Of a stretch of DNA of 24,085 nucleotides, positions 1,320-23,994 are shown piece by piece (position 1 is the stretch's first letter; each line of letters begins with the position of its first letter). Origin of the DNA: a virus. The stretch covers positions 1 through 24,085 of the IMG/VR virus record IMGVR_UViG_3300023442_000027, one strand, 5' to 3'. The position numbers were made by a program, and so were the translations under genes. A model generated the notes under the pieces. It was not told the origin of the DNA, did no database searches, and saw only the letters and a program-made list of their open reading frames with translations.

Positions 1320-1940
1320 ATGTACGAATTGCAAAACGAGCAAGAAACTAAACGAAAAGTCACAGCTCAAGAGTTAAGAGATATAGTCTTGTGTGGTTGC
1401 ACTCAAGAAGAAATGGACTCATTGGATTTGTCAGAAATTACCGACTGTTCTGGACTATTCCGAAATTGTTGGCATTTAAAAGAAGCCCCTGATTTAAACA
1501 TGCCTAATGTTACGTGTACATTTAGTATGTTTTACGGATGCGAGAATTTAACTTCAGTTGGTGATTTGAACTTACCAAAATGTACAAGTTCATACACTAT
1601 GTTTTACCGCTGCGAGAATTTAACTTCAGTTGGTAGTTTGAACTTGCCAAAATGTACAACTTCGAGTAGTATGTTTTACGGATGTAAGAATTTAACTTCA
1701 GTTGGTAGTTTGAACCTCCTGAATTGCACTGAGTTGTACTCTATGTTTTACGGATGTAAGAATTTAACTTCGATTGGTTTTTTAAACTTAACTAGCTGTA
1801 GTACTTTAAACAGTATGTTTGAGAATTGTACATCTTTAGAGTTTATAAAAACACTAATTTTACCACAAAAATTAAGCACATCTAGTCTGTTCAAAGATGC
1901 AAACCTGTTATCACATACACGTCCAGAGTTGTTCATTTGA
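1320..1940 (+). CDS. BspA-like leucine-rich repeat protein (DUF285-type)
   Basis: The 206-residue protein is built of 24-residue repeats of the pattern MFxxCxxLTSVGxLNLxxCTxxxx, with at least four clear copies between residues ~63 and 160 and divergent ones at both ends. This is the BspA/Mycoplasma-type leucine-rich repeat fold, usually involved in binding or adhesion. There is no signal peptide or membrane segment. The repeats are near-identical in DNA with a 72-bp period, so copy number may change by recombination. The start is uncertain: AGGAG (1315-1319) touches ATG 1320, whereas TTG 1329 has ideal spacing. Whether it is a virion decoration or an intracellular binder cannot be told from sequence. 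Confidence 0.8.
   Translation: MYELQNEQETKRKVTAQELRDIVLCGCTQEEMDSLDLSEITDCSGLFRNCWHLKEAPDLNMPNVTCTFSMFYGCENLTSVGDLNLPKCTSSYTMFYRCENLTSVGSLNLPKCTTSSSMFYGCKNLTSVGSLNLLNCTELYSMFYGCKNLTSIGFLNLTSCSTLNSMFENCTSLEFIKTLILPQKLSTSSLFKDANLLSHTRPELFI
1527..1815 (+). repeat. 72-bp tandem coding repeats
   Basis: Four successive units begin at each ATGTTTTACGG-type motif (about 1527, 1599, 1671 and 1743) and encode the 24-residue leucine-rich units. The first three are nearly identical in the segment reading AATTTAACTTCAGTTGGT, while the last has started to diverge. Confidence 0.8.
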
Positions 1941-1967
1941 AATGAAACCAGTAAACAATCAATATAA

Positions 1968-3344
1968 ATGAAACTCAAAACACGAACTGAATTCATCCAA
2001 GAAGCTCAGGGGGTTCACGGGTTAAAGTACGACTACTCGGAAGCTGTTTATTCAGGTGGTCGTGTTAAATTAACTATAATCTGTCCAGAACACGGGAGTT
2101 TTGAACAAACACCTACTGCACATTTAAACAGTCACGGTTGTTTGAAGTGTTACAGCTGTAGTAGAATTAAGAAAACACTAACTGAATTCGTCCAAGAAGC
2201 TCAGGGGGTTCACGGGTTAAAGTACGACTACTCGGAAGCTGTTTATAAAGGCGTCGATGTTAAACTGAATATAATTTGTACAGAACACGGTCCGTTCCAT
2301 CAAACTCCAGCCAGTCATGTAAAAAATAAATCTGGATGTCCTAGATGTTATGGTAATGCTAAGAAAACACTCCCTGAGTTCATCAAAGAAGCTCAGAGCG
2401 TTCACGGAACTAAATATGACTACTCAAAAGCTATTTACTCAGGTAATATGGGCAAACTAACTATAATCTGCCCAGAACACGGTCCGTTCCAGCAAACTCC
2501 AGCCAGTCATGTAAAAAACAAATCTGGATGTCCTAGATGTTACAAGAACAGACCCAAACAACACTTGAGTACCGATGAATTTGTCGAAAAGTTAAAGTGC
2601 ATTCACTCAAATATGTTAATTTATGACGACGTTGTGTACACAGGCGCTGATTGTTCTGTAAATATAACTTGTAAACAACACGGGAAGTTCAAAAGGACTG
2701 CTAAAAATCTAATACAAGGATTGGGGTGTAAACGGTGCGCTAAAGAACGTGTTTTAAGCAAAGTAACAAAAACAACCGAGGAGTTTTTAGCTGAATGTGA
2801 AGCGTTAAACACTGGGTATGATTATAGTTTAGCTAAGTACACACGGTGTCAAAATAAAGTTAAAATAATCTGCCCAACACACGGAGTTTTTGAACAAACA
2901 CCAAACCAACACTTGTCCAAACGTTCAAAATGTCCCAAATGCTTTGACGAAATTAGGTCTAATTGTTATATTGGAAGATACACTCTGAACGAAAAATTGG
3001 GTTCAAAAATTGGTATATTTTACGTAGTAGAGTTCAACTATGAAAAGTCAAACGATTTCAGAGCTTTTAGTTTTATAAAAGTCGGAATCACTTCCAAAAC
3101 CATCAAAGAGCGCTACTCACGTAGTAAACGTGGTGGCAAAAACGATGAAAAATTAAGTTACAAAGTCCACCTAGATTTGAAAATGAGCAACCTCTCAACG
3201 GCTTTGCTAGAAAGATCTTTTTTCAAAGAACACCCACCAGATTTTATATTCCCAGAAGGGTTCAAATTCGGCGGCAAAACGGAATGTTACAAAATCGAAA
3301 ATTTCAACTTCAACTGGTTGAAAGGCTTAGAGTTTTTAAAATAA
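1968..3344 (+). CDS. Zinc-ribbon repeat (DUF723-like) GIY-YIG nuclease, 5 repeats
   Basis: The protein has 458 residues. Residues ~6-335 are five repeats of ~61-65 residues with the pattern FxxxAxxVHGxKYDYS, then C-x2-HGxFxQTPxxH, then GCxxC. The C-x2-H and C-x2-C pairs predict one bound zinc per repeat. Repeats 4 and 5 are more divergent. Residues ~345-455 form a GIY-YIG domain: GIFYVVEF, FSFIKVGITS, ERYSRS, ALLERSFF and GGKTECYK. DUF723-type repeats occur in phage and bacterial homing-type nucleases and probably read DNA. The ATG at 1968 has no good Shine-Dalgarno sequence. The gene lies directly before the actin gene, a typical free-standing homing endonuclease position. Specific target and activity are inferred. 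Confidence 0.8.
   Translation: MKLKTRTEFIQEAQGVHGLKYDYSEAVYSGGRVKLTIICPEHGSFEQTPTAHLNSHGCLKCYSCSRIKKTLTEFVQEAQGVHGLKYDYSEAVYKGVDVKLNIICTEHGPFHQTPASHVKNKSGCPRCYGNAKKTLPEFIKEAQSVHGTKYDYSKAIYSGNMGKLTIICPEHGPFQQTPASHVKNKSGCPRCYKNRPKQHLSTDEFVEKLKCIHSNMLIYDDVVYTGADCSVNITCKQHGKFKRTAKNLIQGLGCKRCAKERVLSKVTKTTEEFLAECEALNTGYDYSLAKYTRCQNKVKIICPTHGVFEQTPNQHLSKRSKCPKCFDEIRSNCYIGRYTLNEKLGSKIGIFYVVEFNYEKSNDFRAFSFIKVGITSKTIKERYSRSKRGGKNDEKLSYKVHLDLKMSNLSTALLERSFFKEHPPDFIFPEGFKFGGKTECYKIENFNFNWLKGLEFLK
1986..2246 (+). repeat. Near-identical 66-bp repeats at 1986-2051 and 2181-2246
   Basis: The two segments are 195 bp apart and differ at a single base. They encode the first half of zinc-ribbon repeats 1 and 2. 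The following 2290-2348 and 2485-2543 segments (second half of repeats 2 and 3) are also near-identical, showing recent internal duplication or gene conversion. Confidence 0.85.
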
Positions 3345-3356
3345 GGAGATAAAAAT

Positions 3357-4319
3357 ATGAAACCAATTTTAGGTATTGATGTCGGTTACGCCCACGTCAA
3401 GTGTACCCTGATGGAAAAAGACGGAAGCATTTTACAACAGTTTAAATTCCCAAGTGTTATTGGGATTACTAAGAAAAATGAACACATTCAAGATAAACGA
3501 ATTTATGATTTTAAAGAAAATTCATACAACGTTGGAGAAAACGCTCTTCACTTGCCAAGCGAACAGATTGTTGACATTACTTCGTATACTAACCTAGAAT
3601 ACTTTTCGCCTTTGTTCCTCCGGCATGCTTTGCAAATTATGGACTTAACTGAAGATGAAACACCGGAAACCGTGGTTACTGGTTTAAGCGTAGCACAACT
3701 GGAAAACTCAGGGTATTTCAAATCAGTCCTTGAAAATATCGAAGTTCAAGGGGTTAAACAATCTTTCAACGTTTTCGTGTTACCTCAAGGTTCTGGATCT
3801 AAAATCACCTTAGACACTTATGGGAATGATTTCCCAAACAAACAAATCAACTTCACCGGTGACCAAACTTACGTAGGTATTGATGTGGGTGGAAATACTC
3901 TTGATATGTTCCTAGTCACAGATGGACGGACTAGTCCCTCGCTGTTCGAAGGTATTGAAAACCAAGGTGTTGTTAAAATTTGTGCTGAAATCGCCAAAGA
4001 AGTAAAATCATCCCACAACCGTGGAATTTCAATCCAAGAAGCTAGGGAAGTTTTAGACACTAACTTTTACTCGTTGAGAGGAGTTAAGCACGATTTCACC
4101 GAGTTTAACAAAACAGCTAAGAAGGTGTATTTGAAAAATCTATTGGAGCTAGTTGAGACCAAATATGGGAAAATTTTAGACAAGTGTGATTTTATCTCTT
4201 TGAGTGGTGGTGGTGCTGGAATTTTCAACGGTTCTGACGACGGGTTTATAAAAGTTCCTAAGAATAAACCAGAGTACTATAACAGCATTGGGTTTGCGAT
4301 CTGGGGAACTAAACGTTAA
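3357..4319 (+). CDS. ParM/Alp-like actin-family ATPase
   Basis: The 320-residue protein has the actin-fold nucleotide signatures in order: phosphate-1 loop GIDVGYAHVK near the N-terminus, phosphate-2 loop VGIDVGGNTLDM in the middle (from about residue 172), and the adenosine-binding LSGGGAGIF near residue 285. Size and order fit the plasmid-segregation ParM/StbA and Alp group rather than MreB or FtsA. Such proteins form dynamic filaments that move DNA. The start follows AAGGAGA with good spacing. No ParR-like adaptor is evident, but three 11-bp repeats lie directly after the stop codon. In a lytic phage it may position or segregate phage DNA; an ATPase of another role is possible. Confidence 0.8.
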   Translation: MKPILGIDVGYAHVKCTLMEKDGSILQQFKFPSVIGITKKNEHIQDKRIYDFKENSYNVGENALHLPSEQIVDITSYTNLEYFSPLFLRHALQIMDLTEDETPETVVTGLSVAQLENSGYFKSVLENIEVQGVKQSFNVFVLPQGSGSKITLDTYGNDFPNKQINFTGDQTYVGIDVGGNTLDMFLVTDGRTSPSLFEGIENQGVVKICAEIAKEVKSSHNRGISIQEAREVLDTNFYSLRGVKHDFTEFNKTAKKVYLKNLLELVETKYGKILDKCDFISLSGGGAGIFNGSDDGFIKVPKNKPEYYNSIGFAIWGTKR

Positions 4320-4326
4320 TACTAAT

Positions 4327-4359
4327 TTAATCAAACCTTAATCAAACGTTAATCAAAAT
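4327..4359 (+). repeat. Three 11-bp direct repeats after the actin gene
   Basis: Three head-to-tail copies of TTAATCAAAC(C/G) at 4327-4337, 4338-4348 and 4349-4359, the last with AT at its end. Spacing is one helical turn. They begin eight bases after the actin stop codon and run into the terminator stem. Confidence 0.8.
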
Positions 4360-4398
4360 AGCCAACTTATGCATTTAATGTGTTTGTTGGCTATTTTT
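4357..4398 (+). terminator. Rho-independent terminator after the actin gene
   Basis: AATAGCCAAC (4357-4366) pairs perfectly with GTTGGCTATT (4386-4395). The loop is 19 bases and the T run is TTTTT at 4394-4398. Confidence 0.85.
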
Positions 4399-4419
4399 AT
4401 GTTATGATGCTATGATATT

Positions 4420-5019
4420 ATGATATTCATTAAGTTTAAAGAGCTTGCGGATGAAAAGTTTAACTGTAAATATAGTTATGTAGAATCTTCTTTTGAAGGA
4501 CGGTTCGTTGATATAATATGCAAAGAGCATGGACGTTTTAGGAAAGACATACACTCTCATTTATCAGGTGTTGGGTGTAAAAAATGCAATTCTTTCAAAG
4601 TTAAAATAATTGAAAACGCGAAGTTGTTCGTGGATAAAAACGCTGGATACAAATTCATTGGATTGGAAACGGTTAAACGAAAAACTTACATGAAATTTGA
4701 GTGTCCCAAAGGACACAGTTTGAAATTTATGCGTGGTTGTGAAAAAACTTGCTTTAAGTGTTCAAGATTAGCTGAGAGAAAAAAGAAACTACAAATTTTA
4801 GCAGATGAGAACGACACCAAAGTGAGTATCGGTGATTGCTCAATAACTACAATTTGTCCAACACACGGCGAAAATACAGTGTCTTTTAATTCGTTCAAAC
4901 GCAGTAAAAAATGCAAAAATATTTTTTCGACGAACGACGTGGTTGGAGCGTTGTATAAGCCAGTCCGAGCATGTCCAAGTGAAATATCAAACAACGACTT
5001 GGGTGTAGTATATGTATAA
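4420..5019 (+). CDS. Zinc-ribbon (DUF723-like) protein without nuclease domain; probable truncated homing nuclease
   Basis: The protein has 199 residues. The first ~55 form a zinc-ribbon repeat related to those of the big nucleases: YSYVESSF, CKEHGRF, HSHLSGVGCKKC. More divergent Cys/His motifs follow (CPKGH, CFKC, CPTHGE). The last residues, NNDLGVVYV, correspond to the start of the GIY-YIG domain of the relatives (for example ESLGQSVGLFYVL), and then the frame stops at TAA 5017-5019. The nuclease domain is thus missing from its first strand onward. The gene begins just after a terminator among clustered ATGs, with no clear Shine-Dalgarno sequence. It may be a remnant or a free DNA-binding repressor; the first seems more likely. 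Confidence 0.6.
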   Translation: MIFIKFKELADEKFNCKYSYVESSFEGRFVDIICKEHGRFRKDIHSHLSGVGCKKCNSFKVKIIENAKLFVDKNAGYKFIGLETVKRKTYMKFECPKGHSLKFMRGCEKTCFKCSRLAERKKKLQILADENDTKVSIGDCSITTICPTHGENTVSFNSFKRSKKCKNIFSTNDVVGALYKPVRACPSEISNNDLGVVYV

Positions 5020-5110
5020 TTTGAAAAACGCACAAAACGCAAGAAACGCAAGAAAAGTACACGTTGTTACTAAAACAAAATATGACAAACACGTTGATGA
5101 TTTTGTTTAA
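5012..5110 (+). CDS. Very short basic open frame, first part of a stop-interrupted gene
   Basis: ATG 5012 overlaps the end of the zinc-ribbon gene by 8 bases. The 32-residue product starts MYNLKNAQNARNARK and ends DDFV before TAA 5108-5110. The same frame continues open to 5328 without another stop, and codon use past the stop is coding-like. I therefore read 5012-5326 as one gene broken by a nonsense codon, or two coupled genes. The function is unknown. Confidence 0.35.
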   Translation: MYNLKNAQNARNARKVHVVTKTKYDKHVDDFV

Positions 5111-5119
5111 ATTAACGGT

Positions 5120-5326
5120 TTGTTAATACCGTTCGGTGTTAATTTTTACGAAGTTCACAAATCGCCGAAGGACAAGGAGCTGTTCACTGACAAAGTAGAT
5201 GCGTTGTTTTCGAGATTGTTGTTCAGTATAAAATCTGGAGTGCCTTTGTCTAACTACGTAACGTCTAAATATTATAAAATTTACCTAGAACAGTTACAAA
5301 AAGACTACCCAGAATTGTTGGTATAA
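5120..5326 (+). CDS. Small hypothetical protein (second part of a stop-interrupted frame)
   Basis: The frame encodes LLIPFGVNFYEVHKSP, continuing to QLQKDYPELLV, 68 residues from TTG 5120. There is no Shine-Dalgarno sequence before the TTG or before ATT 5111, which follows the previous stop directly. In-frame continuity with 5012-5110 (nine bases between stop and TTG) suggests a single ~104-residue ancestral protein. The sequence is helical and lysine-rich. No family is recognised. Confidence 0.45.
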   Translation: MLIPFGVNFYEVHKSPKDKELFTDKVDALFSRLLFSIKSGVPLSNYVTSKYYKIYLEQLQKDYPELLV

Positions 5327-5346
5327 CGTTGGCTGCAAATTAACTG

Positions 5347-5375
5347 TTTACTTTTAGCTTCGTTTGGTGTACAAT
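5347..5375 (+). promoter_or_regulatory. Phage sigma70-like promoter of the clamp gene (TTTACT-17-TACAAT)
   Basis: TTTACT 5347-5352, 17-bp spacer, TACAAT 5370-5375. It is followed by a leader of ~80 bases that starts with a hairpin and ends with AAAAAGGAG before the clamp ATG. Confidence 0.65.
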
Positions 5376-5378
5376 TCA

Positions 5379-5393
5379 CGTTCTGAAAGAACG
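5379..5393 (+). promoter_or_regulatory. 5'-end RNA hairpin of the clamp transcript
   Basis: CGTTCT (5379-5384) and AGAACG (5388-5393) form a perfect 6-bp stem with a GAA loop, only a few bases after the -10. A hairpin at the extreme 5' end is a usual way to protect phage mRNA; that role is inferred. Confidence 0.45.
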
Positions 5394-5460
5394 CTCGTTA
5401 CTGAGATACAATGAACTGCTTTTTTAGTAGAATCATTCGAGTAAAAAGGAGTATTTATAA

Positions 5461-6165
5461 ATGTTAAACAAACAAACTGTTGAAGTTTTACAACAAGTGA
5501 ACAAGATGACTAATTCGGTGATTTTGAAGTTTCCAGAGACTGTGGCAGTTTCAGAAGCTCAAGATATGATGATTATGTTCAACGTCGAAGAGTTGGACGG
5601 AGACTCTTTTGAAGATATTGGGTTGAAGAATTCGTTGGGTGAATTTTTGAATTTAGTTAAGTTGTTCGGGGATGAACGTGTTGTTGATGTTAGTAACGGC
5701 GTTATTAACATCTCCGAAGAAGACACATCTTCAGTTTTCATAACTGACAACATTCAACTTATGAACGCTGAGGAAGTGAAAGTCAGTCACTTTACAAAGA
5801 CTGAGTCTGTTCCGTCAGTAGCTGAGTTTACGTTAACAACGCAAGATATTAAAAAGATCAAATCAAGCTCTGGTGTTTTTAAAGATTTAACAGAGGTTAT
5901 TTTTTCAAGTGTCGATGGTGGCGTTTCTGTTTCTCTAGGTGCTACTAACCGGTTCAACGCCAAGAGTAACAAATTCAGCATTAAGAAATCTTCAAATTGT
6001 ACTAAGCAATTTGAAATTAAAATCCCAGTTGATAATTTTAAAATGTTACCAGAAGCTGACTACACCATGTTCGTTAAATATAACTCAGCTCGCGACACTT
6101 ATCGTATTTTGCTAACTAGCGACTCGTTAGAATCCTTTAAGATTTTAATGACTGTTAAAACTTGA
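5461..6165 (+). CDS. 45: DNA polymerase sliding clamp, gp45-like
   Basis: The 234-residue product is close to the 228 residues of T4 gp45. The N-terminus MLNKQTVEVLQQVNKMTNSV matches the first helix and strand of gp45 (T4: KDTTALLKNFATINSGI). The C-terminal half has the matching strand pattern, including FKMLPEADYTMFVKY where T4 has MKMQPGNYKLLLW. gp45 is a trimeric ring that tethers the replicative polymerase to DNA and, in T4, activates late transcription through gp33/gp55. The gene has its own promoter and a strong AAAAAGGAG site. The clamp loader genes 44/62, next to 45 in T4, are absent here. Assignment is from remembered family sequence and size. Confidence 0.8.
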   Translation: MLNKQTVEVLQQVNKMTNSVILKFPETVAVSEAQDMMIMFNVEELDGDSFEDIGLKNSLGEFLNLVKLFGDERVVDVSNGVINISEEDTSSVFITDNIQLMNAEEVKVSHFTKTESVPSVAEFTLTTQDIKKIKSSSGVFKDLTEVIFSSVDGGVSVSLGATNRFNAKSNKFSIKKSSNCTKQFEIKIPVDNFKMLPEADYTMFVKYNSARDTYRILLTSDSLESFKILMTVKT

Positions 6166-8490: not shown

Positions 8491-10347
8491 ATGAGTAAAC
8501 CATTAACAACTCCCCAATTTACAGAACGAGCTCAGGAAGTTCACGGTTCGAGGTACGATTATTCTTTAGTTGAGTACGTCAACTCAAAAGCAAAAGTAAA
8601 AATCATCTGTCAAGAACATGGTGTTTTTGAACAAATGCCAACTAACCATCTCAATTCAGCTGGGTGTCAGAAGTGTGGGTTCATAAGCATAAAGACCAAA
8701 ATAAGAAAGACTACTGGCGAATTTATAGAACGAGCTCAGGAAGTTCACGGTTCGAGGTACGATTATTCTTTAGTTGAGTACGTCGATTCAAAAACAAAAG
8801 TTAAAATCATCTGTCAAGAACATGGTGTTTTTGAACAATTGCCAACCAATCATCTCAAATCAGGGGGATGTCACATGTGTGGGTATGAAAGTAGGGCTGT
8901 TAGTAGAAGAAAGAGTGAAAAAGAATTCATAGAACAATCTCAGGAAGTTCACGGTTCGAAGTACAATTATTCTTTAGTTGAGTACACACACAGTAAAACA
9001 AAAGTAAAAATCATCTGTCCAGAACATGGTGTTTTTGAACAAACCCCGTCGTTACACATTAGCGGTTCCAATTGTCCAAAATGTAGTTACGAACACCGAG
9101 GGTTGAACTTGTTGGGAACTACAGATAAATTTATATCTGAATCTAATTCCGTTCACGGTTCGAAGTACGATTATTCTTTAGTTGAGTACGTTGGATCTCA
9201 CACTAAAGTTAAAATAATATGTCCCGAGCACGGTATTTTCAAACAAACACCAACAAACCACGTGAATCAAAACGGTTGTCCAAAATGTAGTTATGAAGAT
9301 AACGGAGTAAGAAGAAGTTTAACCACAGAGGATTTTATAAAACGAGCTCGGGAAGTTCACGGAGATAAGTACGATTATTCTTTAGTTGATTACATCCATA
9401 ACACAAAATGTGTTAAAATAATCTGTCCTGAACACGGTGTTTTTGAACAAACGCTCAACGATCACATAAACAGCAGCTGTCCAATTTGCACAACTGAAAA
9501 ACACAAACAGAACCAGTATATAAAATTCATCAACAAAGCTCGGGAAGTTCACGGAGATAAGTACGATTATTATTTAGTTGATTACACTCATAGCAAAACA
9601 AAAGTTAAAATAATCTGTCCCGAACATGGCGTTTTTGAACAAAATCCAAACGTACACTTGTTGCAAAAAGGTTGTTTAGAGTGTTTAGCCAACAGTCAAC
9701 GTGACGCAAACTTTACAAACTTCATCAACAAAGCTCGGGAAGTTCACGGAGATAAGTACGATTATTCTTTAATTGATTACATTAGCTGTACAGTAAAAGT
9801 AGAGATTATCTGCCCTCAACACGGATCGTTTTTACAAACTCCATCAAGTCACTTAAAAGGGTCAAACTGTAGAGATTGTTGGACTGAGGGGTTATCGTTG
9901 GATTTTGTAAAAAAATACACGAACAACGAATCGTTGGGGCAATCTGTTGGGTTGTTTTATGTTTTAAAATTCAAACACGTAGGTGGTTTTGAGTTCATTA
10001 AAGTTGGAATTACTTCAAGGAATGTAGAATCTAGATTCAAACGCGGGTATGAAGAATTCACATATGAAATCATACACACTGTAGAACTTACCAACTTAGA
10101 GGTTGCTTTGTTAGAGCAGCGAGTGTTGAGTATGTTGAAAGAATCAAAAAAACCGTTCAAATTTCCAAAAGGTGTTGTTTTTTCAGGGAGGACTGAGTGT
10201 TTTGATCTCAACGAAACAGATTTGAACGAATTGTTGCAAAAAGCGAACGAAACGCTGAGATGTTTTAATGATTCACAGTCCAACAGTCCAACAGTCCAAC
10301 AGTCCACTAAACGACACGCAGCAGTTTCGTTTGAGTTAAAAAAATGA
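8491..10347 (+). CDS. Zinc-ribbon repeat (DUF723-like) GIY-YIG nuclease, 7 repeats
   Basis: The 618-residue protein has seven repeats of ~57-68 residues (about residues 1-470), each with VHGxxYDYSLVxY, C-x2-HGxFxQ and a final C-x2-C. The GIY-YIG domain occupies ~485-580: VGLFYVLKF, FEFIKVGITS, ESRFKRG, ALLEQRVL and GRTECFDL. A short Ser/Gln-rich tail is encoded by an 8-bp tandem repeat. Start ATG 8491 lies just after the gp32 terminator and has no Shine-Dalgarno sequence, so expression probably depends on readthrough. Its stop overlaps the next gene as ATGA. It is likely a free-standing homing nuclease whose repeats read a long DNA target; the target is unknown. Confidence 0.8.
   Translation: MSKPLTTPQFTERAQEVHGSRYDYSLVEYVNSKAKVKIICQEHGVFEQMPTNHLNSAGCQKCGFISIKTKIRKTTGEFIERAQEVHGSRYDYSLVEYVDSKTKVKIICQEHGVFEQLPTNHLKSGGCHMCGYESRAVSRRKSEKEFIEQSQEVHGSKYNYSLVEYTHSKTKVKIICPEHGVFEQTPSLHISGSNCPKCSYEHRGLNLLGTTDKFISESNSVHGSKYDYSLVEYVGSHTKVKIICPEHGIFKQTPTNHVNQNGCPKCSYEDNGVRRSLTTEDFIKRAREVHGDKYDYSLVDYIHNTKCVKIICPEHGVFEQTLNDHINSSCPICTTEKHKQNQYIKFINKAREVHGDKYDYYLVDYTHSKTKVKIICPEHGVFEQNPNVHLLQKGCLECLANSQRDANFTNFINKAREVHGDKYDYSLIDYISCTVKVEIICPQHGSFLQTPSSHLKGSNCRDCWTEGLSLDFVKKYTNNESLGQSVGLFYVLKFKHVGGFEFIKVGITSRNVESRFKRGYEEFTYEIIHTVELTNLEVALLEQRVLSMLKESKKPFKFPKGVVFSGRTECFDLNETDLNELLQKANETLRCFNDSQSNSPTVQQSTKRHAAVSFELKK
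10276..10307 (+). repeat. 8-bp tandem repeat, four copies, within coding sequence
   Basis: CAGTCCAA three times (10276-10299) and CAGTCCAC once (10300-10307). The unit is not a multiple of three, so gain or loss of a copy would change the reading frame of the nuclease tail. Confidence 0.9.
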
Positions 10348-11756
10348 GTAAAACACTAACAAATACACAATTCATCAACAAAGCTCGGGAAGTTCACGGA
10401 GATAAGTACGATTATTCTTTAGTTGAGTACGTCAACACCAACACTAAAGTTAAGATAACATGTCCTGAGCACGGTATTTTCGAACAAATGCCTAGAAACC
10501 ACACCAAAGGTCGTGGATGTCAAAAATGTGCAAATCGATGCATGACTACTTTTGAATTCATAAAACGAGCTCAGGAAGTTCACGGAGACAAGTACGATTA
10601 TTCTCTAGTTGATTCCAAAAACAACAAAACAAAAGTAAAAATCACATGCAAAGAACACGGGTGGTTTAATCAAATTCCAAACGCCCATTTAAACAACAAC
10701 GGTTGCCCAGAATGTGCTCGTTTGAGTTCAGGCAGCACGTTGGTAAAATCCGTTGAAATGTTCATAGAACAGTCTAGGGAAGTTCACGGAGATAAGTACG
10801 ATTATTCTCTAGTTGAGTACGTCAACACCAACACTAAAGTAAAAATAATCTGCAAAGAACACGGTCAATTTGAACAAATTCCCAAACTTCACACTAAAAA
10901 TTCAGGGTGTACAAAATGTTCCCGGATTAGAACAGGTTCTAAATTATCCAGCAGTACTGCTGAGTTTGTTGAAAAGGCTCACAAAGTTCACGGAGATAAG
11001 TACGATTATTCCAAAGTTGAGTACGTCAACACCAACACTAAAGTAAAAATAATGTGTAAAAAACACGGACAATTCACTCAACGAGTAAATGACCATTTGA
11101 GTGGTAACGGGTGTACAAAATGTTCCCGGATTAGAACTGCGTTTAAATTATCCAGCAGTACTGCTGAGTTTGTTGAAAAGGCTCACAAAGTTCACGGAGA
11201 TAAGTACAGTTATTCTAAAGTTGAGTACAAAAACAACAAAACCAACGTTGATATATTGTGCAAAAAGCACGGATCTTTTTTTCAAACACCCAATTCACAT
11301 TTGGGTGGTAGCGGGTGTTCGATGTGCTTTAGGACTAGGGTTAGAACCCAAAAACGAAGTTCTATATTGGGTTCGAATCACGGAGTAGATTTCATACACC
11401 GATACCAACTAAACTCAGACAAAGGGCTAAAACCTGGAGTGTTCTACAGGTTGGAGTTTAAACACGTAAGCGGTTTTGAGTTTATCAAAGTAGGAATTAC
11501 TTCAGTTGGAGTCAAGAGACGTTTTAAGGGCAAACAGTACAAAGATTTTTCATGGAAAGTGTTGGAGTTGGTACAGTGTAACAACTTGCAAAGTGCTATT
11601 TTGGAAAGAACTTATTTGAATAAATTAAGAGAGTTTGAATATCGTGTTTTTCAATTTCCTCAAAGTATAAGTTTTACAGGTTGGAGCGAGTGTTTTCACA
11701 CAGAGATTAGAGAATTAAAAGCAAAGGAGTTACTGCATGATTTTAGTAGATTATAG
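10344..11756 (+). CDS. Zinc-ribbon repeat (DUF723-like) GIY-YIG nuclease, 5 repeats
   Basis: The 470-residue protein has five zinc-ribbon repeats (residues ~5-340) with the same VHGDKYDYS, C-x2-HG and GC-x2-C signature, then GIY-YIG (~355-460): PGVFYRLEF, FEFIKVGITS, KRRFKGK, AILERTYL and GWSECFHT. It starts at ATG 10344, overlapping the previous stop by four bases (ATGA), and ends at TAG 11754-11756, 20 bases inside the rnh gene. It is thus coupled to genes on both sides. Repeats 4 and 5 contain a 63-bp segment identical in DNA. It is similar to the preceding gene, which suggests tandem duplication followed by repeat exchange. Confidence 0.8.
   Translation: MSKTLTNTQFINKAREVHGDKYDYSLVEYVNTNTKVKITCPEHGIFEQMPRNHTKGRGCQKCANRCMTTFEFIKRAQEVHGDKYDYSLVDSKNNKTKVKITCKEHGWFNQIPNAHLNNNGCPECARLSSGSTLVKSVEMFIEQSREVHGDKYDYSLVEYVNTNTKVKIICKEHGQFEQIPKLHTKNSGCTKCSRIRTGSKLSSSTAEFVEKAHKVHGDKYDYSKVEYVNTNTKVKIMCKKHGQFTQRVNDHLSGNGCTKCSRIRTAFKLSSSTAEFVEKAHKVHGDKYSYSKVEYKNNKTNVDILCKKHGSFFQTPNSHLGGSGCSMCFRTRVRTQKRSSILGSNHGVDFIHRYQLNSDKGLKPGVFYRLEFKHVSGFEFIKVGITSVGVKRRFKGKQYKDFSWKVLELVQCNNLQSAILERTYLNKLREFEYRVFQFPQSISFTGWSECFHTEIRELKAKELLHDFSRL
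10941..11207 (+). repeat. Identical 63-bp segments at 10941-11003 and 11145-11207
   Basis: The two segments, 204 bp apart, are identical and encode the helix and VHGDKY strand of zinc-ribbon repeats 4 and 5. This is a sign of recent duplication or gene conversion. Confidence 0.85.
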
Positions 11757-20573: not shown

Positions 20574-22013
20574 ATGGTTGTTGTTATGGATTTTGAAGAA
20601 TTCCAAATTTTAATATGTACGTTTTACAATGGGGTGGACTATATGAATACAGCAAATTTAACTGTTAGACGATTGGACGAGTCTTTCTCACTAATTTCTG
20701 GACCTTTGGAATTGCTGAACTCAATTCAAGATTATTTGAAAGTTGAACGAGCTGGAGCATTTTTTGACCCGTTAGTGAAAGCTGGGTTTAAATCTAAATT
20801 TGACTACTTCACGACTATTAAAAACGAAAAACTTTTAGTTATGAACGGACACTTGAACTTGTTGGGTAATTTTAACATAAGTCCACACGATTTCACTCAA
20901 GAATTTTCAAACCAAGAGTTAGAAAGATTCCTAAACGAAATGTGTGAAATTCTACCTTTTGAACCTTACGATTTTCAAAAAAATGCATTCATAGAGTGTA
21001 TTAAAAGTGGCAAGCTGTTAGTTAAAGCTTGCACTGGGTCTGGTAAATCAGTTATAATCTCTCTGATTTGTGAATTCTTCCGCAGAAAGGGTAAGAAAGG
21101 TCTGTTGATAGTTCCCAATATTAACCTACTGACCCAGTTCCGAAATGACATCGGCAGTTACAACCTAGGAGAACTTTACGAAAACACAAGATTGATTGGT
21201 GGTGGAGAAACAGAACGAAAATTTGACAAATCTTTGACTATTTCAACCTGGCAGTCTTTGGCTGGTTATCAAGACAAATTACACGAAATAGATTATATAA
21301 TAGCAGATGAAGCTCACAAATCCAGCGCTGACGTTTTTAAAGATATAATCAACAACAGCCAAAACTGCAAGTACAAGTTGGGGTTAACTGGGACAATCCC
21401 TGATGATTTATGTGCTAAAATGCAAGTCGTCGGTTTGTTTGGACTTCCTAGAACTTTCATAACTACCAAACAACTAATCGACCGAAAGTTAGCAACTCCT
21501 ATTAAAATCAACTCTTTAATTTTGAACTACACAAAAGAAGACAAACGTGAGTTTAACTTGCAAAAAACATACCCAAAACAAATGATATTCGTCAAAGAAC
21601 ATGAACCGAGAACTAAATTCGTAGTTAAACTCATGTCTAAGTTGAAATCAACAGGGAATACACTCGGGTTGTACCAACACACAATTCACGGAAAGCTGTT
21701 GTTTACTGAAATTATGAAATCGCTACACCCAGAAGTTGAAGTTCTCAACAAACACATAACTGGTAAAAAATCATTCGAGTTTCAACGAAAACACGGGGTT
21801 TATTTTCTAAACGGGGAAGACGACAAGCTAACTAGAGAAAGAACTAGAAAGATTTTAGAAGAAGATTTGTTCAAAATTACTCTTGAAAACGGAGATATTG
21901 TCAGGTTACACAGCGATGAAAAGGTGCTTTTGTCGAATGGCGACGAAATTACAGCTGGTGAATTAACTGAAGATTCTGATATTTGTGACGAATGGTTAAA
22001 AAACCGACGGTGA
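20574..22013 (+). CDS. uvsW: UvsW-like helicase, N-terminal part (gene interrupted), with intein-like tail
   Basis: The protein has 479 residues. Residues 1-429 match the T4 UvsW recombination helicase: PYDFQKNAF (Q-like motif), KACTGSGKSVII (Walker A, ~151-162), LLIVPNINLLTQF, ISTWQSL, IIADEAHKSS (DEAH ~245), KLGLTGTIPDD and the VGLFG segment. NTLGLYQHTIHGKLLF and FLNGEDDKLTRERTRKILEE then begin the second RecA domain. At residue ~430 the helicase breaks off. The last 50 residues contain FKITLENGDIVRL, EKVLLSNGDE and AGELTEDSDI, like block B of inteins. Motifs V and VI are on the separate gene 22910-23227. No strong Shine-Dalgarno sequence precedes ATG 20574; ATG 20586 is an alternative. UvsW unwinds branched DNA and R-loops in T4. 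Confidence 0.85.
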   Translation: MVVVMDFEEFQILICTFYNGVDYMNTANLTVRRLDESFSLISGPLELLNSIQDYLKVERAGAFFDPLVKAGFKSKFDYFTTIKNEKLLVMNGHLNLLGNFNISPHDFTQEFSNQELERFLNEMCEILPFEPYDFQKNAFIECIKSGKLLVKACTGSGKSVIISLICEFFRRKGKKGLLIVPNINLLTQFRNDIGSYNLGELYENTRLIGGGETERKFDKSLTISTWQSLAGYQDKLHEIDYIIADEAHKSSADVFKDIINNSQNCKYKLGLTGTIPDDLCAKMQVVGLFGLPRTFITTKQLIDRKLATPIKINSLILNYTKEDKREFNLQKTYPKQMIFVKEHEPRTKFVVKLMSKLKSTGNTLGLYQHTIHGKLLFTEIMKSLHPEVEVLNKHITGKKSFEFQRKHGVYFLNGEDDKLTRERTRKILEEDLFKITLENGDIVRLHSDEKVLLSNGDEITAGELTEDSDICDEWLKNRR

Positions 22014-22023
22014 GTAGTTGTTT

Positions 22024-22929
22024 ATGAAATTTCATTACGTGTACAGGATTACAAACACAGAGCTCAACAAACATTACTACGGCTGTAGAAGTTCAAACGT
22101 TGAACCGGTGACAGATCTGGGTAAAACGTACTTTAGCTCAAGCACAGATAAACAATTCATACTAGACCAGCGTGAAAACCCAAAGCGTTACAAATATAAA
22201 GTTGTCAGGACGTTCAATAGTAGAAAAACAGCAGAGTTGTTCGAAACTATGCTTCATGAAAAATTCCAAGTACAAGTTCATAGATCGTTTTACAACAAAG
22301 CTATCAACACACGTATGGGGTTTAGTGTAGTTGGCGTTCCAAAGACACAAGAACACAAAGATAAAATACGCCAGTTCGCTAAAGGTAAAACATACGAAGA
22401 GTTGTACGGTGTTGACGCAGCAAATGAGAAGAAAACTAAATTAAAGAAAGGTATGGAAAAACGAGGCAAAAAATGGAAAAACAACATACGAACTGCAAAA
22501 ACCGGAGTAAAATTATCAAAACTGCACAAAACAGCCATAAGTAATGGGCTAGTACAACGATACAAAGATGAATCGTTCTACAAGTCGTTTTGCGAAACTA
22601 TGCGAGATGTCAATAAACGGACAGAAAAACGAAAAGCTGCGAGTGAAAAAATCACTGCTAAATGGAAAGACCCTGTATATTTAGAAAAAATGAAAAAAAG
22701 AGCACACAAACCGAAAAAAATTATAAAAATTACCTTCCGTGACAGAACTGACGAAACGTTTACTGGATTTGACGATATGATAAAACATTATAATTTTAAC
22801 GCAACGTTAGTGCGCAAGTTCATCAATACTGGAAAACCTTGTTACCCTAAACGCAACACGAACAGCGAAAAGACTAAAAACACACTAGGTGTAATGTTTG
22901 AGGAAATTAATGAAAATAAAAAAAATTGA
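22024..22929 (+). CDS. Free-standing GIY-YIG homing endonuclease (NUMOD type) inside uvsW
   Basis: The protein has 301 residues from ATG 22024, with GGTGAG overlapping the stop of the upstream half as ribosome site. GIY-YIG domain: HYVYRITN and HYYGCRSS strands, AELFETMLHEKF with the catalytic Glu, and YNKAIN with the Asn. After it, PKTQEHKDKIRQFAKGKTYEELYG is NUMOD3-like. Several Lys-rich helices follow, then FTGFDDMIKHYNFNATLVRKF, an IENR1/NUMOD1-like DNA-binding helix-turn-helix. The architecture is that of I-TevI/Seg-type enzymes and differs from the zinc-ribbon nucleases elsewhere here. The gene separates two helicase halves and overlaps the second by 20 bases, so all three are one transcription unit. 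Confidence 0.85.
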   Translation: MKFHYVYRITNTELNKHYYGCRSSNVEPVTDLGKTYFSSSTDKQFILDQRENPKRYKYKVVRTFNSRKTAELFETMLHEKFQVQVHRSFYNKAINTRMGFSVVGVPKTQEHKDKIRQFAKGKTYEELYGVDAANEKKTKLKKGMEKRGKKWKNNIRTAKTGVKLSKLHKTAISNGLVQRYKDESFYKSFCETMRDVNKRTEKRKAASEKITAKWKDPVYLEKMKKRAHKPKKIIKITFRDRTDETFTGFDDMIKHYNFNATLVRKFINTGKPCYPKRNTNSEKTKNTLGVMFEEINENKKN

Positions 22930-23227
22930 AACACAAAACCAAATTTTAGTAGCCAACTATATGTTATTATCAACAGGAGTTAACATTCGAAAACTCCACA
23001 ACTTGGTATTTGCATCTCCTTTGAAATCATTCACAACGGTTACGCAAAGCATCGGGAGAATTTTAAGACTTCACCCAAGTAAGAAAATAGCAAACGTGTA
23101 CGACTTAGTTGATAACTTCGGACTTAGAAAACCAGGAGGAATTTTCTTTAAACAATACCAACACCGACTTTCCCTAAGCTACTACCCAGAAGAATTCCCA
23201 ATCCAAGAAGCGCAAATTCAACTTTGA
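22910..23227 (+). CDS. uvsW: UvsW-like helicase, C-terminal part
   Basis: I choose ATG 22910 because GAGGAA lies just before it (22900-22905); TTG 22898 would be earlier. The 105-residue product MKIKKIETQNQILVANYM, LLSTGVNIRKLHNLVFASP and QSIGRILRLHPSKKIANVYD corresponds to helicase motifs V and VI of T4 UvsW (VASYGVFSTGISVKNLHH and QTIGRVLRKHGSKTIATVWD). It continues exactly where the upstream half stops (KILEE, then IETQNQ). It cannot be a helicase alone and presumably joins the N-terminal half as a second subunit. There is no intein-type C-terminal segment or essential Asn before the extein, and a TAA (22892) closes the frame upstream. Confidence 0.85.
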   Translation: MKIKKIETQNQILVANYMLLSTGVNIRKLHNLVFASPLKSFTTVTQSIGRILRLHPSKKIANVYDLVDNFGLRKPGGIFFKQYQHRLSLSYYPEEFPIQEAQIQL

Positions 23228-23397: not shown

Positions 23398-23994
23398 ATG
23401 AATCCTAAAATCACAGTTAACACGAAAAAGGAACTTAAAGATATAATCAACAACTCACCTAAAACCGCCGATTTGAACCACTTAGATGTTTCTCAAATAA
23501 CGAACTTGGATAGGTTGTTCATAAACACAGATTTTCAAGGAAATATATCAGAATGGAACGTTGAAAATGTCACAAGCGCAGGTCGTGCGTTCGATGGTTG
23601 TGTAAACTTCAACTCCAATCTGTCAAAGTGGAAACCCAAAAAACTGCGTTTCGCAGAATATATGTTCGTTGGGTGTGAGAGTTTTAATTCAGATTTGACA
23701 AATTTCAACTTATCCTACATGTCAGACATGAGTCATATGTTCGACGGTTGTACCAAGTTCAACGGGGATGTTTCGAGTTTTGATTTAGAACATACTGAAA
23801 ACGTGTTGTACATGTTCGCTGGGTGTGAGAGTTTCAACAGAGATCTTTCCGGGTGGCATTTGAGCAAACAAAGTAATAAAATGGCTATATTCACAAATGG
23901 TTTTTTTAAAGATGTCAAAACTTTAGAACAATACGTAGAAGCTCATAAATCGTTCAAAACTTTAGGACCGTTGTTTAAATTATTATATTTGTAA
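23398..23994 (+). CDS. BspA/DUF285-type repeat protein
   Basis: The 198-residue product has DUF285 units: LDVSQITNLDRLF, ISEWNVENVTSAGRAFDGC, FNSNLSKW, MFVGCESFNSDL, MSHMFDGCTKFNGDVSSF and MFAGCESFNRDLSGWHL. Such repeats form leucine-rich-type surfaces for binding, common in surface proteins of Mycoplasma and other bacteria and also in phages. There is no signal peptide. The repeats differ from those of the BspA-like protein at 1320 (WNVxNVTxxxxMFxxCxxFNxDLSxW here, LNLPKCTxxxxMFYGCxxLTSVG there). The last ~45 residues are not repeat. A late promoter without leader or Shine-Dalgarno sequence precedes the ATG. A late-expressed virion or adhesion component is a reasonable guess. Confidence 0.75.
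   Translation: MNPKITVNTKKELKDIINNSPKTADLNHLDVSQITNLDRLFINTDFQGNISEWNVENVTSAGRAFDGCVNFNSNLSKWKPKKLRFAEYMFVGCESFNSDLTNFNLSYMSDMSHMFDGCTKFNGDVSSFDLEHTENVLYMFAGCESFNRDLSGWHLSKQSNKMAIFTNGFFKDVKTLEQYVEAHKSFKTLGPLFKLLYL

Follow-up and report, generated by a model that had tools for sequence, protein, structure and literature searches.

A putative splicing-dead half-intein at the break of a split phage UvsW helicase

In the 24,085-nt stretch of viral DNA analyzed here (the window), the gene for UvsW, the phage ATP-dependent branch-migration repair helicase, is split over two ORFs, and an endonuclease gene lies between the halves. The N-half ends in a tail that resembles part of an intein. Where does this tail come from, and how might two separate chains make one helicase? 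The features of the locus are as follows.

20574-22013, plus strand: whole ORF of the UvsW N-half (479 aa, stop codon at 22011-22013)
20574-21863, plus strand: helicase body of the N-half (430 aa; PHROG 16, E = 3.5e-49; ResIII, E = 5.7e-20)
21864-22013, plus strand: 49-aa C-terminal tail of the N-half plus the stop codon, a putative splicing-dead block-B half of an N-intein
22018-22929, plus strand: homing-endonuclease-like gene of the GIY-YIG type between the halves (PHROG 314, homing endonuclease, E = 4e-13)
22910-22930, plus strand: N-terminal tail of the C-half, MKIKKIE, overlapping the end of the endonuclease gene and resembling the first strand of a C-intein
22931-23227, plus strand: UvsW C-half with helicase motifs V and VI (PHROG 9690, E = 5.5e-23; PHROG 16, E = 2e-19)

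Two UvsW ORFs with an endonuclease gene between them constitute the layout of a fractured gene. The break falls just before helicase motif V. The N-half body holds the RecA1 domain with motifs I–III and the start of RecA2; the C-half (ORF 22910-23227, with a GAGGA Shine-Dalgarno sequence upstream of ATG 22910) aligns with intact UvsW proteins and holds motifs V–VI, so neither chain is a complete helicase. The nuclease gene starts at TTG 22018 or at ATG 22024, the latter having a Shine-Dalgarno-like GGTGAG upstream. Its GIY-YIG motif was read from the sequence, and over 108 aa the product is 52% identical to an ORF of the GIY-YIG type in Vibrio phage phiKT1024.

The nearest intact relative is the UvsW of Vibrio phage SRILMA (54.6% identical to the window N-half), which runs uninterrupted across the break site (...TRQILENHEDAILIANYAILSTG...). 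In the window, the N-half reads ...TRKILEE, followed by DLFKITLENGDIVRLHSDEKVLLSNGDEITAGELTEDSDICDEWLKNRR and a stop, and the C-half reads MKIKKIE, followed by TQNQILVANYMLLSTG. According to a 12-protein UvsW alignment, about 56 residues have been added at the break, divided over both chains, with no visible loss of UvsW sequence. Both additions, the 49-aa C-terminal tail and the MKIKKIE start, are absent from intact UvsW. The original prediction had described intein-like residues forming an extra tail on the N-half. The residues were found where it had placed them, the tail proper comprising residues 431–479 (21864-22010), and the intact homologues lack it.

The same prediction had seen the pattern of intein block B in this tail, and profile–profile comparison with inteins gave a significant match. 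Fifty-one distinct phage sequences went into the N-intein profile (Salmonella S16, Proteus PM2, Campylobacter WX1, IBB_35, and viral contigs); the complete NrdA, UvsW, and PhoH inteins of Campylobacter, Salmonella, and Proteus phages served as a reference set and are not taken as relatives of the stump. The window tail alone reached an hhalign score of 35.2 (P = 6.6e-7), while column shuffles had a mean of 10.3 (sd 2.3) and none of the 200 scored as high. Held-out true block-B pieces of inteins covered 23.7–61.5 on the same scale. The alignment was full-length and in register, tail residues 1–46 pairing with IntN 53–98, through the end of IntN. Among 317 real phage protein C-termini, the window tail ranked first, the best unrelated one scoring 21.0. 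Profiles of tails from other phages (described below) behaved similarly: the four-tail profile scored 30.4 and the five-member profile 34.9 (0 of 400 shuffles as high in each case), the profile with the window left out 28.5, and the Vibrio-only profile 22.5 (0 of 200 in each case). The tail of Vibrio phage D506 alone was weak (14.7, with 9 of 200 shuffles as high), which counts against an intein origin. We also scanned 6,502 ORFs blindly with a block-B HMM that had no tails in its training set. Outside inteins and intein-carrying proteins, it matched only the window tail (E = 0.035) and the tail of Dickeya phage LIMEstone1 (E = 0.38). The homology to the N-intein splicing domain thus covers the block-B half only.

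General libraries did not call the tail an intein. Pfam and NCBIfam scans of the tails were not significant, the best hit being TIGR01445 in another register (E = 0.009, below the cut-off). We do not count these failures as counter-evidence, because several isolated block-B pieces taken from true inteins were likewise missed, or only just detected, by the curated libraries. A PDB sequence search with the window tail alone ranked a DnaE intein first, but with E = 0.26. The four-tail profile matched no intein among PDB sequences, a point against the intein reading, although we regard these PDB sequence searches as uninformative overall. A tail-profile search of viral contigs returned LIMEstone again and no other match.

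The predicted fold points in the same direction as the profile comparison. An AlphaFold model of the tail, built from two sequences (the tail and one homologue), showed four strands and a C-terminal helix with a pLDDT of 78. In a Foldseek search of the PDB, the first 14 rows were inteins, the best being Npu DnaE IntN (probability 1.00, TMq 0.66, E-value 0.044). VIA-align listed 42 entries with Z ≥ 2, all of them inteins or intein-like domains; in the best of these, the tail model covered residues 49–99 of Npu DnaE IntN (Z = 5.5). The modeled tail is thus predicted to have half of the Hint fold, and its structural matches are confined to inteins and intein-like domains. The model of the full N-half was poor (pLDDT 52), because its alignment had four rows. 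It reproduced the strands of the tail-only model; it was too poor to place the tail on the helicase, which weighs against the docking proposed below.

Splicing by the known mechanism requires parts that this locus lacks, as had been foreseen in each particular. The tail directly follows ILEE, with no Cys or Ser of block A upstream, and its alignment with IntN starts at positions 53–55. At the T-x-x-H of block B, the window reads HSDEK. In the C-half, MKIKKIE is followed directly by UvsW, leaving no room for blocks F and G. We found no His-Asn followed by Cys, Ser, or Thr in the window C-half, and neither a nucleophile nor HN at the junctions. No complete IntN and IntC are present at the junction, only the IntN block-B half and about seven IntC-like residues. 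As block A with Cys1, the T and H of block B, and the F and G blocks are all missing, the tail cannot splice by the known mechanism; judged from its residues, it is splicing-dead. The block B T and H positions are also lost in the related phages LIMEstone, D506, K469, and Vibrio 1.244.

The original prediction had overlooked the start of the C-half, where MKIKKIE resembles the opening strand of a C-intein. The closest phage C-intein start is MKVTKIE, from the split PhoH C-intein of Campylobacter phage WX1, and other split UvsW C-halves (LIMEstone, D506, K469) begin with MKPTKI or MKPTKV. Among the 1,771 ORFs of all the loci compared, a start of the form MK.[TK]K[IV], a pattern chosen post hoc, occurred only in these UvsW C-halves and in the WX1 C-intein. 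MKIKKIE is probably intein-derived, seven residues being too few to prove descent.

Alignment of tails in other split genes showed that this one recurs at exactly this position in UvsW. Dickeya phage LIMEstone1 and its relatives have tailed UvsW halves on either side of ORF123, an HNH endonuclease in the RefSeq record. In Vibrio phages D506 and K469, the same tail is present, the UvsW halves are adjacent with a 4-nt ORF overlap, and there is no endonuclease. Vibrio phage 1.244 has an unbroken UvsW of 581 aa with a related in-frame insert of 53 aa at the same site: KKRISLDFGSDFIEVDFDDIFTTKSGDKRAIDLKVGDVTEEHGKVCKTKELRG. This insert (UvsW of MG592609; locus 1801-3546) is block-B-like and may have arisen by re-fusion of a fracture or may represent an ancestral, unsplit state; it had no match among PDB sequences. 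Between the window and LIMEstone, the tails are 46% identical and the helicase bodies 28%. Since the nuclease is of the GIY-YIG type in the window, HNH-type in LIMEstone, and absent in D506, the tails are not the by-product of one endonuclease. The insert was absent by alignment from the UvsW of SRILMA, Det7, KN2-1, S-SM2, S-CREM1, one T4-like phage, and S16, as well as from 80 environmental-virus UvsW C-regions, a few of which were cut by contig ends. Its absence from other UvsWs marks it as an acquired insert, one that either entered two or more lineages separately or passed from one lineage to another. The same tail was expected on Aeromonas 25/44RR gp43A, LIMEstone gp43, and Aeh1 NrdA-a, and was not found there.

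The intein profile match, a predicted fold shared only with inteins and Hint domains, and the recurrence in other split genes support the proposal that the tail is a relic of a Hint domain, and its descent from an intein is well supported. The two outcomes that the original prediction had named as fatal to it, a lack of similarity to Hint domains in profile comparison and a lack of recurrence in further split genes, are both contradicted by these results. Our preferred reading, to which we assign a probability of about 60%, is that the tail is a splicing-dead half-intein, common to unrelated phages and kept by selection, which most likely docks the two UvsW chains. The tail would be the second half (the block-B subdomain) of an N-intein and the C-half start the matching first strand of the C-intein, both being remnants of one intein at a single UvsW site just before motif V. 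Having lost block A with Cys1 as well as F and G, and with the T and H of block B replaced, the intein would no longer splice, and UvsW would be permanently two chains. Hint structures show that the last IntN strand and the first IntC strand adjoin at the split point of a split intein. The pieces kept here would be those that flank the natural split point, together with the half-domain behind one of them. By strand pairing, the chains would dock and bring motifs V and VI to the ATPase site of the N-half. A clamp may be the simplest function for the retained pair, and it is plausible that the tail and the MKxxK start dock the two halves.

The history is harder to reconstruct. Many related phages have true split inteins of similar design in their UvsW. 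These sit at motif I and motif II, and endonuclease genes separate their parts. The natural source would be an intein that occupied a third position in UvsW and was trimmed of its two catalytic ends; alternatively, an endonuclease gene could have moved to a new site and taken along the inner flanks of the split intein to which it once belonged. Because no active intein was found at this exact UvsW site among the first 80 intein loci or the 80 UvsW C-regions, we infer the path from intein to stump: an active split intein would have come first, and splicing would have been lost later. Losing both catalytic ends with the flanking UvsW intact requires two separate trims, which counts against the preferred reading. 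Different homing-endonuclease genes would then have come and gone at the break. Our broader suggestion is tentative, with the odds slightly against it: the clamp may outlive the endonucleases, recur in unrelated phages, and be able to re-fuse as an insert, as in 1.244, marking a passage from protein splicing to two-subunit assembly.

The main rival to docking is that the dead half-intein has no assembly role. The RecA2 fold itself would bring the two pieces together, and the tail would persist because the break is frozen and the tail harmless. Selection on the tail bears on this directly. Between D506 and K469, the tails have pS 0.88 and pN 0.22, with no indel and identical length and stop; this pattern indicates that the tail is under purifying selection in phages with no endonuclease at the site, and the exact retention of length and stop is not what a harmless leftover would predict. 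An acidic-aromatic motif near the tail end, D-[VI]-x-D-x-W-[IL], is kept across distant split-case phages, and the paired MKxxK start is kept on the C-half in every split case. The helicase bodies of the two Vibrio phages have pS 0.63 and pN 0.08, so the tail is less constrained than the body; identity is 64% in the tail and 88% in the body, a weaker constraint than expected of a tight interface. The nonsynonymous rate of the Vibrio tail is about three times that of the body, the reverse of the window–LIMEstone comparison, where the tail is more conserved. We count this faster evolution of the Vibrio tail against docking through a tight interface and in favor of a relic, and the paired conservation and purifying selection in favor of the clamp. 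A tail with no role would also fit two further observations, namely that other split phage proteins (44RR/25 gp43A/B) have no recognizable intein tail, and that Vibrio 1.244 retains a related insert in a single chain, which needs no docking. On balance, we regard a passive relic as unlikely, at roughly one chance in four.

It is far less probable that the tail has nothing to do with inteins and was created by the endonuclease insertion, as proposed for Aeh1 NrdA-a/b, its likeness to Hint domains being convergent. The tail indeed lacks every catalytic intein residue, the library searches were not significant, and Aeh1 is a known precedent for unrelated tails. Such an origin is at odds with the full-length, in-register match to N-inteins, which was significant against both shuffles and real decoys, and with a predicted fold that matches inteins only. 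The tail lies beside a GIY-YIG gene, an HNH-type gene, or none, and so is not the by-product of one insertion; the Aeh1 tails, for their part, fail the intein profile.

The least credible proposal, that RNA splicing (a group I intron) or an unusual protein reaction yields one UvsW chain, has behind it the listing of the LIMEstone uvsW element (ORF123, ‘I-LimI’) as a putative intron by the authors of that genome (PMC3296691), and is highly improbable because the site spans only ~170 nt in D506 and K469, where the two ORFs share 4 nt, which leaves too little room for a group I intron, because Vibrio 1.244 translates straight through the site, because the tail is conserved as protein under purifying selection, and because the junctions hold no nucleophile or HN for a protein reaction. 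Rfam matched no group I intron at these loci; since it also matched none in the author-called LIMEstone polymerase introns, this is a weak test. At the LIMEstone1 uvsW site (ORF123, locus 3658-4557, the intron named I-LimI), we saw the putative half-intein protein tails and no sign of an intron. The breaks of the LIMEstone polymerase (I-LimII/III) have no half-intein tails.

How the UvsW tail relates to known systems depends on which feature is compared. Fractured genes whose halves carry the parts of a split intein and are separated by an endonuclease gene were reportedly described by Dassa et al. in 2009. The fractured genes in our set (UvsW of S16 and PM2, PhoH of Campylobacter phages) share with the window the two ORFs, the endonuclease gene between them, and an intein-like end of the N-half and start of the C-half. 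They differ in that the window retains only the IntN block-B half and about seven IntC residues, with no catalytic residue; in addition, the active split inteins in UvsW sit at motif I and motif II, whereas the window site lies before motif V. In Aeromonas phage Aeh1 NrdA, a homing-endonuclease gene likewise splits the enzyme, each half bears a non-native tail, and there is no splicing; studies by Friedrich in 2007 and Crona in 2011 are said to have found these tails to be needed for activity. The tail of Aeh1 NrdA-a, in contrast to that of UvsW, failed to match the N-intein profile, and the two tails are dissimilar by eye. A further difference is that the UvsW tail is found across several groups of phages, that the accompanying nuclease varies or is missing, and that a related insert exists in an unbroken UvsW. 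The UvsW tail stands between the fractured genes with split inteins and the interaction tails of Aeh1 NrdA.

Two published cases offer more distant parallels. The replication enzyme of phage 25 consists of two chains, gp43A/B, with an endonuclease gene at the break, and the halves co-purify and are active (PMC2988022); it resembles split UvsW in this layout, and the 25/44RR gp43A/B pair differs in having no intein-like tail at the break. Arth_1007 of Arthrobacter FB24, an example of an intein pseudogene (PMC3196547), is likewise an inactivated intein; there, however, the inactive intein is entire and has no real host gene around it, whereas the present case is a half-intein at the fracture of a phage enzyme. 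What appears to be new is that different phage groups retain a catalytically dead half-intein where the same gene is broken, and that an unbroken counterpart exists: we found no published description of such a half-intein in a literature search that covered the Aeh1 tails and fractured genes incompletely. Very few genes broken by mobile elements are known to be functional without RNA or protein splicing, and the origin of their joining tails is obscure. Because the present tail is traceable to an intein and occurs in several lineages, with or without endonucleases and with an unsplit counterpart, its origin, spread, and function are testable. If true, docking by a clamp would show how protein splicing can give way to the non-covalent assembly of two subunits. 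The pair of 49 and about 7 residues, which has no catalytic residues, could also serve as a small non-splicing dimerization tag.

Some of the compared viruses carry split inteins of their own. In Salmonella phage S16 (locus 2314-5040) and Proteus phage PM2 (2314-5046), UvsW is interrupted at motif II by a complete split intein, whose halves are separated by an endonuclease gene; the annotations list two genes and a hypothetical protein and do not mention the intein. In four viral contigs, UvsW is in three pieces with two nuclease-like genes; one break, at the P-loop, holds an atypically split intein whose C-part is long, and the other, at motif II, holds a canonical one. The PhoH of Campylobacter phages WX1 (locus 2726-5701) and CPt10 is divided by a split intein that is complete, and an endonuclease gene lies between the two parts; the CPt10 gene is annotated as a pseudogene disrupted by an insertion.

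The window itself contains further genes of note. ORFs at 1968-3344, 8491-10347, and 10344-11756 consist of tandem DUF723/DUF4379 treble-clef zinc repeats (pattern YDYS..Y....KVKIICPEHG.FEQ.P..H....GC.KC) with an end that, by eye, is GIY-YIG/T5orf172-like. Shorter DUF723/DUF4379 pieces occur at 1-318 and 4420-5019, so that several large nuclease-like genes fall within 24 kb. DUF285 (BspA-like) repeat proteins, unusual for a T4-like replication gene block, are found at 1320-1940, where the assignment was confirmed by Pfam, and at 23398-23994, where it was judged by eye. A phage-encoded actin-like protein of the ALP/ParM type lies at 3357-4319.
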